64,000 bases of DNA from Desulfuromonadales bacterium. Its GTDB lineage: Bacteria; Desulfobacterota; JAENJC01. This document shows positions 2,514 through 36,064 of the stretch, piece after piece (within the stretch, counting starts at the first letter, position 1; each line of letters begins with the position of its first letter). Below the pieces are notes generated by a model that worked only from the letters and a program-made list of their open reading frames with translations, searched no databases and was not told the DNA's origin. The stretch is taken from assembly GCA_919902985.1 (NCBI GenBank), contig CAKKSC010000004.1, positions 1-64,000 on the forward strand, in the 5' to 3' direction. The position numbers were made by a program, and so were the translations under genes.

Positions 2514-3401
2514 CTAATTATCCTTCCTTTTAATTACTTTCCTTATATCTTCCGCATTAAACGAACTTCTTACAAGCGGCGCTGAGGCAACATGGAGGAA
2601 GCCCTTCTTTCTCGCAATATCTCCATACTCTGCAAAGAGATCTTCTTCAATATACTCAACAACAGGGAGGTTCTGCCTGGAGGGCCTCAGGTACTGGCCA
2701 ATGGTAAGGACATCGCATCCAACTGTCCTGAGATCATCCATGACGCCCAGAATCTCTTCCCTCTTCTCTCCCAGACCCAGCATGATCCCTGACTTGGTAA
2801 CAATCCTGGGTTCCAGGCTCTTCATGCCTTTTAGTATTTTCAGGGACCTCTCATAATTAGCCTGAGGCCTCACCATTGGATAAAGCCTCGGGACTGTCTC
2901 CATATTATGATTGAAGATATCCGGTCTTTCCCTGGCAATCGGCTCCAGAAGTGCAACGTCACCCTTAAAATCAGGGGTCAAGACTTCTATTGAGGCTTCT
3001 GGAATCGCATTTCTCAACTCTTTAATTGTAGACCCGAAATGCCCTGCCCCTCCATCGCAAAGGTCGTCCCTTGTTACAGAGGTTATCACAACATGCCTGA
3101 GACCAAGCTGTTTCGATACACGGGCAACCTTCACAGGCTCTTCAATGTCAAGGATTTTTGGGGCTCCGGGAGTTACATTGCAGAAACCGCAGTTTCTGGT
3201 GCAGACATCTCCCATAATCATGAATGTTGCGGTCGGCTTGGAAAAACACTCGCCTATATTGGGGCAACTGGCCTCTTCACAAACGGTATGAAGCCCTTCC
3301 CGCCTCATGACCTCTTTCATCTTATGAATGGATCCTCTGGTTCCGATCTTCCTCTTTGCCCATTTGGGTAGCCTCAGATTGCCGTCAGAGCGATATTCCA
3401 T
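2514..3401 (-). CDS. lipA: Lipoyl synthase
   Basis: This radical SAM enzyme inserts two sulfurs into octanoyl groups on lipoyl domains. The auxiliary-cluster motif [12 protein letters not shown] and the radical SAM motif CTRNCGFC are both present, and the C-terminal RSS motif appears in [10 protein letters not shown]. Length (295 aa) is normal. It is the first gene of a minus-strand series into the aminotransferase, vanZ and murI. No lipB is visible nearby. Confidence 0.96.
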
Positions 3402-3636: not shown

Positions 3637-4323
3637 ATGCCTGTTATTGCCATAGAAACAGCCACCATGGCCGGAAGCGTCGCGATTGTTGATAACACAA
3701 GGGTGATCTCCGAGATTACCCTTAATATCAGGGCGACCCACTCCGAGAAGCTGATGGCTGCCATTGACCGCCTTCTCGGCGACTCAGGTCTTGCCATTGA
3801 TGATATGGACGGAGTAGCCGTATCAATCGGGCCGGGCTCGTTTACCGGCTTGAGGATAGGCCTGAGCGCAGCCAAGGGGCTTTCTTACGCTTCAGGCAAG
3901 CCGCTCATGGGCATACCGACGCTGGACGCCATGGCCCTTAATATGACTTTTTCAACTTATCTTATCTGCCCGATCCAGGATGCAAGGAAGGGAGAGGTTT
4001 ATACTGCCCTTTACAGACCAGGCGATAAATCACCGGAAAAAATAACAGATGACATCGCCGTTAACCCTGACAACCTTGCAGGGATGATAACCGAAAAAAC
4101 CGTATTTCTCGGGGACGGAGTAAACAGATACAGGGAACTGTTAATGGCAAAACTTGGGGAGCTATATAATGAAGTCCCCATCCCCTTACAACTGCCGAGG
4201 GCATCTAACATAGCCATGCTTGCATTGAAGAGACTGGAAAAGGGCGATGCCGATGACCCGTTTACAGTGGTGCCCAGGTATATCAGAAAATCGGAGGCGG
4301 AGATAAGGTGGAAAGAGAAATGA
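3637..4323 (+). CDS. tsaB: tRNA threonylcarbamoyladenosine biosynthesis protein TsaB
   Basis: TsaB is the inactive-ATPase partner of TsaD in forming t6A37 on ANN-decoding tRNAs. The protein has 228 aa. It shows the N-terminal ETATMAGSVAIV, the HSEKL motif, and SIGPGSFTGLRIGLSAAKGL, which are typical of the family. It stands alone on the plus strand, divergent from lipA. The start is the ATG directly after the palindromic element. Confidence 0.93.
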   Translation: MPVIAIETATMAGSVAIVDNTRVISEITLNIRATHSEKLMAAIDRLLGDSGLAIDDMDGVAVSIGPGSFTGLRIGLSAAKGLSYASGKPLMGIPTLDAMALNMTFSTYLICPIQDARKGEVYTALYRPGDKSPEKITDDIAVNPDNLAGMITEKTVFLGDGVNRYRELLMAKLGELYNEVPIPLQLPRASNIAMLALKRLEKGDADDPFTVVPRYIRKSEAEIRWKEK

Positions 4324-32856: not shown

Positions 32857-33870
32857 ATGAAGAAGCTGCCTATTATCTGGAGCGCATTGGCACTCCTTCT
32901 ATTATTTACAGGTCAGTCTCTCGCATCAACCCCTCAGATTGGGCGGATGCGGGTTGCCATATGGCCGGAGTTTGACGACCCTGGCGCCTTGGTCATTTAT
33001 GACGGCAGGTTCATAGATGACAGCTCTTTCCCCATTGAAACGACCTTCCTTGTCCCGAAAGGCGCTGTAATAAGCGATGCATGCAGTCTCTCGCCAAAAG
33101 GACAGCACTTCTGCCAGTTGTTCACACAGAGGAATGCCGGGGATATGGACGAGGTGCTGTTAAAGCTTCCTTACCCCAACTTCTATCTCAGCTTCCATAT
33201 CAAGCCGTTCAAGGGCGACAACCCTTTGAGAAGGTTCAATTATGTCATAAAGACCAGCCATCCTGTGAGCAAGCTGGAAGTAGACATTCAGAGGCCCCTA
33301 AGGGCTGAGAATTTCACCATTAATCCCGAAACCCATGAGAAGGAAGAATTAAAGGGGTTTGAGCATTACCGCTATCTGATTAAAGACGGAGAAGCTGGGA
33401 TGGTTATCCCCTTTGACATCTCATACAGGAAAGACGACAGCAGGCCGTCCGTGAGCATAAAATACTCGCCCATGAAGGGGGCAAAGACCTGGGGTGAGAC
33501 CGACTACGCCAAGATTAATGATGTGGCGAGGGAGCTTGCATGCCCCTGCGAGTGCCCGTTGGTCTTGGAGGACTGCAATATGAGTTGCGGCCTTGACTGG
33601 AAAGACCAGATAGGGGAGATGCTAAGGGCAGGGAAGACAAAGGATGAGATAATAAAGGCATTCATTGCAAAGTATGGCAATGAATGCAAGATAACGCCGA
33701 TAATGAGGATACAGGGAAAGTTTTTCCAGTACACAAGAAGGTTTGATACAATGGACTGGGCCCTTTTATGGGGTGGTGTCGCAGTGTCAGCAGGGTCTTT
33801 ATTTTTAGGCATATATATGGTCGTCAGGAGGTTCCTGAAAAAGAGGACAACGGCTGGAGTGGACGGTTGA
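32857..33870 (+). CDS. CcmH-like protein with extra N-terminal domain
   Basis: The protein has 337 aa. A Sec signal peptide is followed by about 190 residues of a beta-rich domain I do not recognise (IWPEFDDPGALVIYDGRF near the start). Then comes a CcmH-like helical hairpin, ELACPCECPLVLEDC, with DEIIKAFIAKYG as its second half, and a C-terminal membrane anchor. CcmH reduces apocytochrome c thiols before heme ligation and normally has LRCxxC; here the motif is CPCxCP. The next genes encode a cytochrome, a thioredoxin-like protein and a CcdA-like protein, so a role in a dedicated cytochrome c assembly branch is likely. Confidence 0.78.
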   Translation: MKKLPIIWSALALLLLFTGQSLASTPQIGRMRVAIWPEFDDPGALVIYDGRFIDDSSFPIETTFLVPKGAVISDACSLSPKGQHFCQLFTQRNAGDMDEVLLKLPYPNFYLSFHIKPFKGDNPLRRFNYVIKTSHPVSKLEVDIQRPLRAENFTINPETHEKEELKGFEHYRYLIKDGEAGMVIPFDISYRKDDSRPSVSIKYSPMKGAKTWGETDYAKINDVARELACPCECPLVLEDCNMSCGLDWKDQIGEMLRAGKTKDEIIKAFIAKYGNECKITPIMRIQGKFFQYTRRFDTMDWALLWGGVAVSAGSLFLGIYMVVRRFLKKRTTAGVDG

Positions 33871-34673
33871 GGGCATTTTTCATTGCTTCTTCTATATTTA
33901 TAGGATTTCTGGCCGCCCTTGCCCTTGCAGCCTTTCTTATCCTCGTAGATACAAGCCCAATGGGAAGGATGGAGTATCTCTTTGAAATTGGCAGGCTGAG
34001 TGTATTCCGGTATACCGGCCTCGGCAACATGAGTGACCGGGATGTAAAATTAATATATGAGGGCAGATGCACAAGGAAGTGCCACAGCCGTGATGTTGTA
34101 GAGCGTTCCGCCCATAATGTCAGGGAGTGGGAGGAGATTATAGGAAGGATGCGGACCGTAAATAAGGCAAATGTGACAAACAGCGAGGGAACAGTGATTA
34201 CAACCTATCTCACAAAACGCTATGGGAGCAATATCCCCACCATCCTTACAGCCGAAGGCGGCAAATACCTGAAAAAATATCTTTGGCGGAGCGACTTCGG
34301 GGAAAGCGACCTGTATGTAGATATCATATTCACCCCTATGGAGTATTTCAACTTTACAGGAGGGGGCAGCACTCTTGAAGGGTATGATGCCGGTAAATAT
34401 ATACTCTTCAAGGTTTATTTAAACACACATCAGAACAAGCTTGCGCCCTACCCCCTTGAGCGTCTGGCAATACTTAAGACCGGCGAAGGCAAAGAATATA
34501 AACCTGAGATGTGGAAGGTGCTTTATGAAAGCGCTGATTATCACCACAGGGAAGGATTATTTGTATTTAAGGGTGTTGGCAACGACGCTACATCCATGTC
34601 TCTCTTCCTGATGGATTTACCGGGGCAGAAGGAGAGGATATTTCAGTGGGACCTTCCGATACCGGAAAAATGA
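33867..34673 (+). CDS. Membrane-anchored cytochrome with CxxxCH heme motif
   Basis: The protein has 268 aa from the TTG in the TTGA overlap with the upstream stop; the track starts further up at 33768. An N-terminal membrane helix precedes GRCTRKCHS, a heme-attachment motif with three residues between the cysteines. HNVREWEEIIGRMR follows, a pattern seen in small c-type cytochromes. The C-terminal 120 residues (FTPMEYFNFTGGGSTLEGYD onward) are unassigned. CxxxCH motifs are rare and may need the CcmH-like partner next door. Confidence 0.7.
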   Translation: MRAFFIASSIFIGFLAALALAAFLILVDTSPMGRMEYLFEIGRLSVFRYTGLGNMSDRDVKLIYEGRCTRKCHSRDVVERSAHNVREWEEIIGRMRTVNKANVTNSEGTVITTYLTKRYGSNIPTILTAEGGKYLKKYLWRSDFGESDLYVDIIFTPMEYFNFTGGGSTLEGYDAGKYILFKVYLNTHQNKLAPYPLERLAILKTGEGKEYKPEMWKVLYESADYHHREGLFVFKGVGNDATSMSLFLMDLPGQKERIFQWDLPIPEK

Positions 34674-35251
34674 ATATACTACACAATAAACTAACCACGG
34701 AGACACAGAGACACAGAGTAAATATTTTTATGCCTCTTCTCCGTGCCTCCGTGCCTCTGTGGTTAATCATTGTCCTTTTCCTGGGTTGCAGCAAAGAGCC
34801 CAGGGGGACGCAGCCAACAATCAAGATTGGGGAAACTGCCCCCCCTTTTTCCCTTGAACTGATAGACGGGAGGACCGTAACGCTTGACACATTCAAGGGG
34901 AAGCCCCTGGTATTAATAAATATGGCATCCTGGTGTCCCTGCTCCCACGATAGCGCACCTGTCTTCAAGGAGGTTTATGAAATATACCATCCTAAGGGTG
35001 TTGAGTTCCTGATGCTCGGGATACAGGACTCAAAGAAAAAGTTTGAAAAATTTGTGAAGAAGAAGGAGTTCAAATTCCCTGCTGGGTTTGACAAGGGGGA
35101 TGTTATTTCCAAAACATACGGTGTAAGCGCCCCTCCGACAACATTCTTTATAGACAGTGATGGAAAGGTAGTAAGCGCCTTCTATGGCAAGATAATAGAG
35201 AAAGAAAGGCTATCTGCATGGATCGACGAGATAGTTCCCAGGGAGGAGTAA
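34670..35251 (+). CDS. TlpA/ResA-like thioredoxin lipoprotein with repeat-derived N-terminus
   Basis: The thioredoxin fold begins with GETAPPFSLELIDGRTVTL, has the active site ASWCPCSHD (CxxC), and the cis-proline region GVSAPPTTFFID. It would keep apocytochrome thiols reduced outside the membrane. Two starts are possible. One is the ATG at 34670, overlapping the upstream stop as ATGA. The other is the ATG at 34730, which gives MPLLRASVPLWLIIVLFLGC, a complete lipoprotein signal with lipobox LFLGC. Much of that signal is encoded by the palindromic repeat. Confidence 0.85.
   Translation: MNILHNKLTTETQRHRVNIFMPLLRASVPLWLIIVLFLGCSKEPRGTQPTIKIGETAPPFSLELIDGRTVTLDTFKGKPLVLINMASWCPCSHDSAPVFKEVYEIYHPKGVEFLMLGIQDSKKKFEKFVKKKEFKFPAGFDKGDVISKTYGVSAPPTTFFIDSDGKVVSAFYGKIIEKERLSAWIDEIVPREE
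34692..34765. repeat. Interspersed palindrome (CCACGGAGACACAGAG type) inside a coding region
   Basis: Left arm TAACCACGGAGACACAGAG (extending to 34718) and right arm 34739-34765 ending CCTCTGTGGTTA are complementary at 22 of 27 positions. I recognise this as a dispersed intergenic repeat of many bacterial genomes. Here it lies within the 5' end of the TlpA-like ORF. Confidence 0.75.
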
Positions 35252-36031
35252 TTGATTATAAAGGACGTCGGTTTCCTCATCGCCTTCTGGGGCGGTTTTT
35301 CATCCTTTTTTACACTCTGGCAGCTATGCCTGATGCAGATAACGCCATTCTTTCTTGCCTTTGCGGCAGGTCTATATTTGCTGGAAGATAACAGCAATTC
35401 CGCAGCCCGCAATCCGCAATCCGCACTTGTCAGCCTTCTCCTGGCATGCGCTGGGTACATTCTCGGTTTCAGCATCGTATTTGCTTTGATGGGAACATCT
35501 GGATGGGGAACTGCTTCATACATACTTTACAACATTGATGACTTCAGGACCGCAGCCGCTATCTATATAACAATTATCGCCCTGTTGATGGCGCTTTACA
35601 ACTTTTATGGAAGCCTCGCCAGCTCTTTAGACAAGCTCAGGATGAACGATGATATAACCTTATTTGACAAACCTATCCTGTTCCGCATCTTATATCTTCC
35701 AGCAGGCCTTCTCCTTGGGGCATCCTTTGCCCTGGCCTATTCACCGTGCATCCCGCCTGTTATGTCCGATATAATGAACTTTGCCGGCAAGCCTAACAAT
35801 GCCCTCAGGGGCTTTCAACTTCTGATTGTATACGGTTTTGGAGTGACTTTGGCATTCTCCATTTCAGGGTCTGCGCTCGCCATTCTGGCTGGTTATTTCA
35901 CAGAGAGAAGGTCTGTAAAGGTCACTATTGCCTATCTGTCTTCAGGGACCTTGTTCCTCATGGCATTTCTGATATTCACAGACCTGATGATCCGCTATAA
36001 GTCGTTTCTGGTGGGGCTGGTCCTCGATTGA
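35252..36031 (+). CDS. CcdA/DsbD-like membrane thiol transporter
   Basis: The protein has 259 aa and about six membrane segments. The motif LAYSPCIPPVMSDIM matches the second conserved Cys-Pro helix of CcdA; the first helix has LWQLCLMQITPFF with one Cys-containing counterpart. These proteins carry electrons from cytoplasmic thioredoxin to TlpA/CcmH partners. The start is TTG with SD GGGAGGAG directly after the TlpA-like stop. A loop contains AARNPQSAL, encoded by a CCGCAATCCGCAATCCGC repeat. Confidence 0.78.
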   Translation: MIIKDVGFLIAFWGGFSSFFTLWQLCLMQITPFFLAFAAGLYLLEDNSNSAARNPQSALVSLLLACAGYILGFSIVFALMGTSGWGTASYILYNIDDFRTAAAIYITIIALLMALYNFYGSLASSLDKLRMNDDITLFDKPILFRILYLPAGLLLGASFALAYSPCIPPVMSDIMNFAGKPNNALRGFQLLIVYGFGVTLAFSISGSALAILAGYFTERRSVKVTIAYLSSGTLFLMAFLIFTDLMIRYKSFLVGLVLD

Positions 36032-36064
36032 CAGCAGCATGACCTTTCATATTTTTTCAGTATG

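Follow-up and report, generated by a model that had tools for sequence, protein, structure and literature searches.

The window, the whole 64,000-nucleotide stretch analysed here, carries a gene for a TlpA/ResA-like thioredoxin-fold lipoprotein on the forward strand at 34670–35251 (193 codons from ATG 34670), and SKEPRGTQPTIK is a peptide segment of its product. The protein scored above the Pfam cut-offs for AhpC-TSA (80.3 bits) and Redoxin (79.7 bits), while the NCBIfam ResA model reached 108 bits, under its cut-off of 170, and we therefore limit the assignment to "ResA/TlpA-like". The WCPC active-site motif (34931–34942, +) is intact and invariant in the orthologue alignment, and the lipobox FLG/C (34778–34789, +) ends in a cysteine codon at 34787–34789 that is likewise invariant among the aligned orthologues. 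Upstream, on the same strand, a CcmH-like gene (32857–33870; Pfam PF03918, 39.7 bits) provides a cytochrome c maturation context. It is followed by a gene at 33768–34673 (+) with a weak SorB match under the cut-off, whose TGA stop (34671–34673) overlaps the likely TlpA start codon in an ATGA at 34670–34673 (+). Downstream, a polytopic membrane protein (35252–36031, +) looks CcdA/DsbD-like by eye and has no match in Pfam or NCBIfam. One of its loops contains a heptamer array, CCGCAGCCCGCAATCCGCAATCCGCA, at 35400–35425, and the same loop in G001, a congener represented by a deltaproteobacterial MAG (JAENJC010000079), holds a different heptamer-like stretch, ACTCCGAACTACGAACTACCA. Opposite 36046–36049, G001 also carries a 189-nt insertion with palindrome-like ends, CGCAGATTTACACAGAT...ATCTGCGTCC (L002:2800-2990), which is absent from the window.

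Inside the TlpA-like reading frame lies a near-perfect palindrome at 34692–34765 (+), a dispersed repeat of the octamer family C[AG]C[AGT]GAG[AG] reading TAACCACGGAGACACAGAG...CTCCGTGCCTCTGTGGTTA. Its 27-nt 5' arm (34692–34718, +) codes for (L)TTETQRHR, a polar/basic n-region, if translation starts at 34670; its 20-nt loop (34719–34738, +) contains an alternative start, ATG 34730; and its 27-nt 3' arm (34739–34765, +) codes for LRASVPLWL, part of a hydrophobic h-region. The initial annotation had noticed a palindrome within this frame, and both arms are indeed present and in frame, but the element had been drawn as far as 34800 and in fact ends at 34765. It had also joined the right arm with IIVLFLGC into a lipoprotein signal; the frame reads as claimed, but the part of the signal contributed by the repeat is CTTCTC...TGGTTA only, and IIVLFLGC is unique sequence. 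The stretch CCACGGAGACACAGAG at 34695–34710 matches without mismatches, and when up to three mismatches were allowed it was found four times in the window (0.33 expected), always within the 34692–34765 element. The RNA of 34660–34790 was predicted to fold at -36.8 kcal/mol, as compared to -23.2 +/- 3.3 for shuffled sequences (z -4.07), and none of 200 shuffles was as stable. At the ends of the palindrome, CTAACCAC...GTGGTTAATC, there is no GTAG or CGTC tag of the REP/RAYT type; no target-site duplication is visible at 34680–34775, and there is no empty/filled pair, the G001 sequence being different there. Assignment to an Rfam family was rejected, as the only matches were sub-threshold microRNA hairpins, which we regard as chance.

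Between the repeat and the lipobox cysteine at 34787 there is no ATG, GTG, or TTG, so the repeat must be translated whichever of the standard starts makes the protein. Read from ATG 34670, the frame gives MNILHNKLTTETQRHRVNIF-MPLLRASVPLWLIIVLFLGC followed by SKE, which includes the left arm as the initial annotation had proposed; from ATG 34730 it gives MPLLRASVPLWLIIVLFLGC followed by SKE. A third start, GTG 34646, lies in DNA common to G001 and is unusable in G001. It is doubtful that the repeat sits in the 5' leader and supplies the start codon, ATG 34730 in the loop, together with the 3' arm only. The product of that start, MPLLRASVPLWLIIVLFLGC, would be a compact signal that resembles those of ordinary lipoproteins, 20 residues long with one arginine near the start and the cysteine as residue 20, but ATG 34730 has no Shine-Dalgarno sequence at the usual spacing (ACAGAGTAAATATTTTT-ATG), and its position in the loop would require ribosomes to enter internally. 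The ATGA formed by ATG 34670 and the stop of the preceding gene, in contrast, resembles the coupled starts of distant orthologues, whose signals likewise span about 40 residues before the cysteine. From the sequence, ATG 34670 is the likelier start, and the earlier suggestion that the repeat might supply the start codon accordingly loses ground.

By a crude hydropathy measure, the resulting N-terminus has the layout of a polar/basic n-region, a hydrophobic h-region, and a lipobox ending in cysteine. Its maximum 11-residue hydropathy is 2.99, as compared to 3.3 in G001 and 3.17 in G045, and the native residues without the repeat reach 1.94; the uncharged run before the cysteine is 14 residues with the repeat and 8 with the native part alone. 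We infer from this layout that the protein is probably exported and lipidated.

In an alignment with the G001 locus, DNA identity is about 90% on both sides, as far as 34670 on the left and starting again at 34786 on the right; the DNA between these two points is unrelated, and there G001 has 212 nt ending in an ordinary lipoprotein signal, MRKLKTIILSLLFLALIAAC. The alignment with a TlpA homologue lacking the repeat, as suggested in the initial annotation, thus pairs well-conserved flanks with an unrelated signal. The G001 insert was also considered as a sister repeat; its core, CACAGATGAACACAGAT, is rare (one to three copies per genome), and it was set aside as evidence. In a tree of 22 mature proteins, the repeat signal of the focal protein is nested among relatives with ordinary signals, at least two changes being forced, which indicates an independent origin, confined in this tree to the focal lineage. 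All genomes compared are MAGs, with one genome of the focal species, and relatives are called deltaproteobacterial here by the label of their records.

That the insertion is recent and damaging, with a broken signal or a hairpin that blocks translation in a gene on its way to becoming a pseudogene, is quite improbable. A stable hairpin at the gene start and the single genome of the species would fit such decay. Against it, the frame is open, WCPC and the lipobox are intact, and a dN/dS of 0.103 shows purifying selection on the mature part of the gene, with six synonymous changes and one nonsynonymous change on the focal branch; comparable signals, moreover, are kept in nine orthologues and in other gene families. 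Judged by these features, the TlpA-like gene is not dead. Mis-assembly is unlikely because the insert, at 74 nt, is below the usual read length and synteny is kept. The reservation attached to the initial annotation, that homologues might have an unrelated signal and this gene be inactive or mis-assembled, was therefore right about the homologue but not about the gene. Its central proposal, that a dispersed repeat supplies part of a lipoprotein signal, stands, given an intact gene under purifying selection and a close homologue without the repeat.

The octamer-based family has about 13 to 17 copies in the 2.13-Mb focal genome (G000). A degenerate search recovered about 13 full palindromes there, as compared to about 14 in a second congener (G002) and roughly 5 in G001, and counts for reversed-pattern controls were far below these. 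The focal element has matches of 71–90% at six other places in G000. In G000 the remaining octamer copies lie between genes or precede a plausible start codon, often no more than 50 nt from the genes on either side, and the focal copy could therefore be a tolerated accident. This placement, together with the strong RNA hairpin, is also what one would expect if the palindrome acted as DNA or RNA, for example as an mRNA stabiliser, an attenuator, or a protein-binding site between cotranscribed genes, with coding as a side effect. We regard this as unlikely to be the main explanation: such a role is compatible with coding, and making the mature protein from a standard start requires that the repeat be translated. 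Translation could be reduced by so strong a hairpin near the start of the coding sequence.

The coding properties of the family were examined in 26 elements, each read in all six frames of the two strands. In 99% of the readings the right (3') arm was more hydrophobic than the left (5') arm (mean hydropathy +0.91 and -2.06, respectively), and stops were absent from the right arm in 96% of the readings and from the whole element in 53%. The purine-rich codons of one arm specify Arg, Glu, Gln, Thr, and His, while their complement specifies Leu, Val, Ser, Cys, and Phe. As the element is a palindrome, inversion leaves the order of the arms unchanged, and as tandem 8-mers pass through all three frames, an insert is expected to give a polar/basic stretch and then a hydrophobic one. 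This holds for the octamer family only. The broader idea that every heptamer palindrome is a frame-proof, ready signal was rejected, since heptamer elements overall did not run from polar to hydrophobic more often than controls and were often interrupted by stops, the intergenic ones being stop-free in 17% of frames.

Taken together, the alignment, the tree, and the coding bias make it very probable that an octamer palindrome entered the TlpA-like gene in frame, between the start and the lipobox, after the split from the congener, and that it is now part of the signal. A dispersed copy would have landed in frame in the segment that separates the start codon from the lipobox, and translation would begin at 34670 by coupling with the upstream gene. 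The 5' arm, TTETQRHR, would then be read as the polar/basic n-region, and the 3' arm, LLRASVPLWL, together with the native LIIVLFLG, would form the hydrophobic h-region. Processing by Sec and signal peptidase II would be unchanged, and the repeat would leave with the cleaved signal. The gene would have tolerated the insertion, or made use of it immediately, since a signal peptide requires no more than a polar/basic part, then a hydrophobic part, and then a cleavage box; octamer palindromes provide this order whichever way round they insert and in nearly any frame.

In ten of the 15 deltaproteobacterial orthologues, the focal one and nine others, the TlpA signal is built from dispersed repeats, tandem 7/8-mers with six or more different make-ups; examples are KIQDSRFK...NLQLATL, TIYDLRFTIYDF...LTAYCLLLT, and SGVRSQKPEARNQK...ILHLASCIL. 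Arrays over our threshold were found in the signal regions of 7 of these 15 orthologues, whereas 22 other orthologues had none there and the 37 mature regions were likewise free of them; the focal arms, with two to three imperfect octamers each, fall under this threshold. The flanks of nine array-bearing deltaproteobacterial loci contain 34 arrays in 63 kb, and no such arrays were found in 154 kb of DNA flanking the 22 other loci. At locus L065, the TlpA signal contains yet another palindrome nested in frame, CCTCCCCCTTTATCCCCCTC...GAGGGGGACAGGGGGAGG, the third of its kind, and the upstream paralogue in the same genome has the corresponding peptide IPPPLSPSGGGQG in its own signal; the two N-terminal regions concerned lie at about 3220–3300 and 3880–3990.

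Samples of 336, 318, and 460 kb from three genomes were surveyed with a home-made gene caller and a crude signal rule, so that the counts are approximate; arrays turned up in intergenic DNA, within coding sequences, and at N-termini. The array lay in the signal region in 9 of 27 array-bearing genes in G172, 4 of 18 in G000, and 1 of 16 in G018, where predicted signal DNA made up 2.7%, 2.2%, and 2.4% of the sample, respectively. By Pfam, the genes with arrays in the predicted signal encode LptA, CcmH, TlpA, thioredoxin-like proteins, multicopper oxidase, multihaem cytochrome c, an NHL lipoprotein, SpoIID, M6 and M48 peptidases, SH3, and FadL, and on these assignments the array-bearing signals belong to envelope families. 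As controls, the proteins with an N-terminal array and no hydrophobic stretch, Dxs and KsgA, are cytosolic; their heptamer-array extensions (KsgA, L153:12992-13903; Dxs, L159:13527-15464) have no hydrophobic part, and the KsgA array is missing from the aligned G001 sequence. In-frame heptamer palindromes also occur in cytosolic enzymes (L149:4129-4191; L123, L140, L131, and L069:730-848) that are ValRS-like, IleRS-like, and TilS-like by motif, and we liken these to Rickettsia palindromic elements.

It is very improbable that the tandem 7/8-mer signal arrays are phase-variation switches in which loss or gain of units shifts the frame. Units of 7 or 8 nt are not multiples of three, and several arrays have four to five near-identical units, as such a switch would have, but the focal arms hold too few and too imperfect octamers to count as an array, all signal arrays examined were in the open state, and slippage needs no palindrome.

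Pairs of congeners show signals that have been exchanged while the start and the cleavage site stayed fixed, with flanks about 95% identical. For example, in the M48 peptidase gene, compared among three congeners (loci L163:11046-11945, L172, and L173), G000 and G001 are 96.7% identical over 60 nt upstream and 94.7% over the 759-nt mature part, while their signal DNA is unrelated (43%) and is made up of a different heptamer palindrome in each. Between G000 and G002, by comparison, the mature part is 70%, the upstream region 75%, and the 105-nt repeat signal 92.4% identical. The family of this G000 repeat is matched at 36 places in G000, as compared to 20 in G002 and 9 in G001. In SpoIID each of the three congeners has a repeat signal of its own, and FadL has two different ones, with the start and the cleavage site AFADEYHYNN unchanged. 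M48 and SpoIID were picked for their arrays in G000, and FadL shares the contig of M48, so these cases are evidence that swaps occur and not of their frequency. We rejected a rate estimate for signal turnover in the G000/G001 pair, as only about 75 kb of overlap was compared and the array-chosen genes bias the table of 17 pairs.

In view of these observations, signal peptides in the genus and in related MAGs are probably a recurrent landing and exchange site for dispersed tandem-heptamer and octamer palindromes. On balance we favour the view that envelope-protein signals in these organisms are routinely built from, and exchanged for, dispersed 7/8-mer palindromes, with the start and the cleavage site fixed; M48, with its repeat replaced in one pair and kept in the other, illustrates both sides. 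The stretch between those two points would be overwritten from a pool of repeats, presumably by insertion or gene conversion, and the arrangement may be beneficial as opposed to tolerated.

The palindromic elements of Rickettsia and Wolbachia (RPE), from work by Ogata and colleagues that is described in PMC2996958, are dispersed repeats that lie in frame in protein-coding genes at structurally tolerant sites. Like them, the focal repeat is a multi-copy dispersed palindrome, in frame in a conserved gene and absent from a close homologue, but the elements here, which we liken to RPE by description, are tandem 7/8-mer palindromes that, in genes for envelope proteins, form the signal between the start and the cleavage site. 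PARCELs are coding repeats of dyad symmetry that are mobile within genomes and occur in membrane proteins and lipoproteins (PMC2996958); they are protein domains outside the signal, whereas the repeats described here would go with the cleaved signal. The enterobacterial RU-2 in Yersinia YPO1552 is a precedent (Delihas 2007, PMC2759123), although RU-2 is one longer MITE-like unit (168 bp) with few cases. The repeats found here come from several families that are unrelated to each other, occur in many genes, and are swapped between congeners whose flanks are about 95% identical.

REP/REPIN sequences, which are associated with RAYT transposases, are short dispersed palindromes (PMC3116915, PMC3733652). 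In likeness to such systems, G000 has seven Y1_Tnp (RAYT-type) genes over the Pfam cut-off (C12, C21, C28, C34, C43, C59, and C76; L031–L037), but the arms of the octamer repeat are about 27 nt long, and no octamer palindrome lies within about 1.5 kb of any of these genes (loci of 2.0–3.3 kb examined). A RAYT-driven REP was rejected for this reason: RAYTs are present in the genome, with no element beside them.

The short tandem heptanucleotide repeats (STRR) of cyanobacteria are dispersed tandem heptamers; the elements here differ, by description, in that they are paired as inverted arms. In the open-licence literature we found no report of tandem-heptamer or octamer palindromes as recurrent, exchangeable signal peptides. 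What is new beside the RPE and RU-2 precedents is the recurrence across genes, the several repeat families, and the exchange between congeners.

Signal peptides are loosely constrained, and the origin of new ones is mostly unseen. Here, pairs of close relatives catch the replacement of a signal with both flanks intact, and the birth and turnover of signal peptides become directly testable by reporter fusion. The findings also call for caution in gene callers that trim "repeat" N-termini. A selfish-looking repeat whose arms read polar and then hydrophobic would be a ready source of signals, and a role in the signal would give a reason for the survival of such palindromes inside genes.
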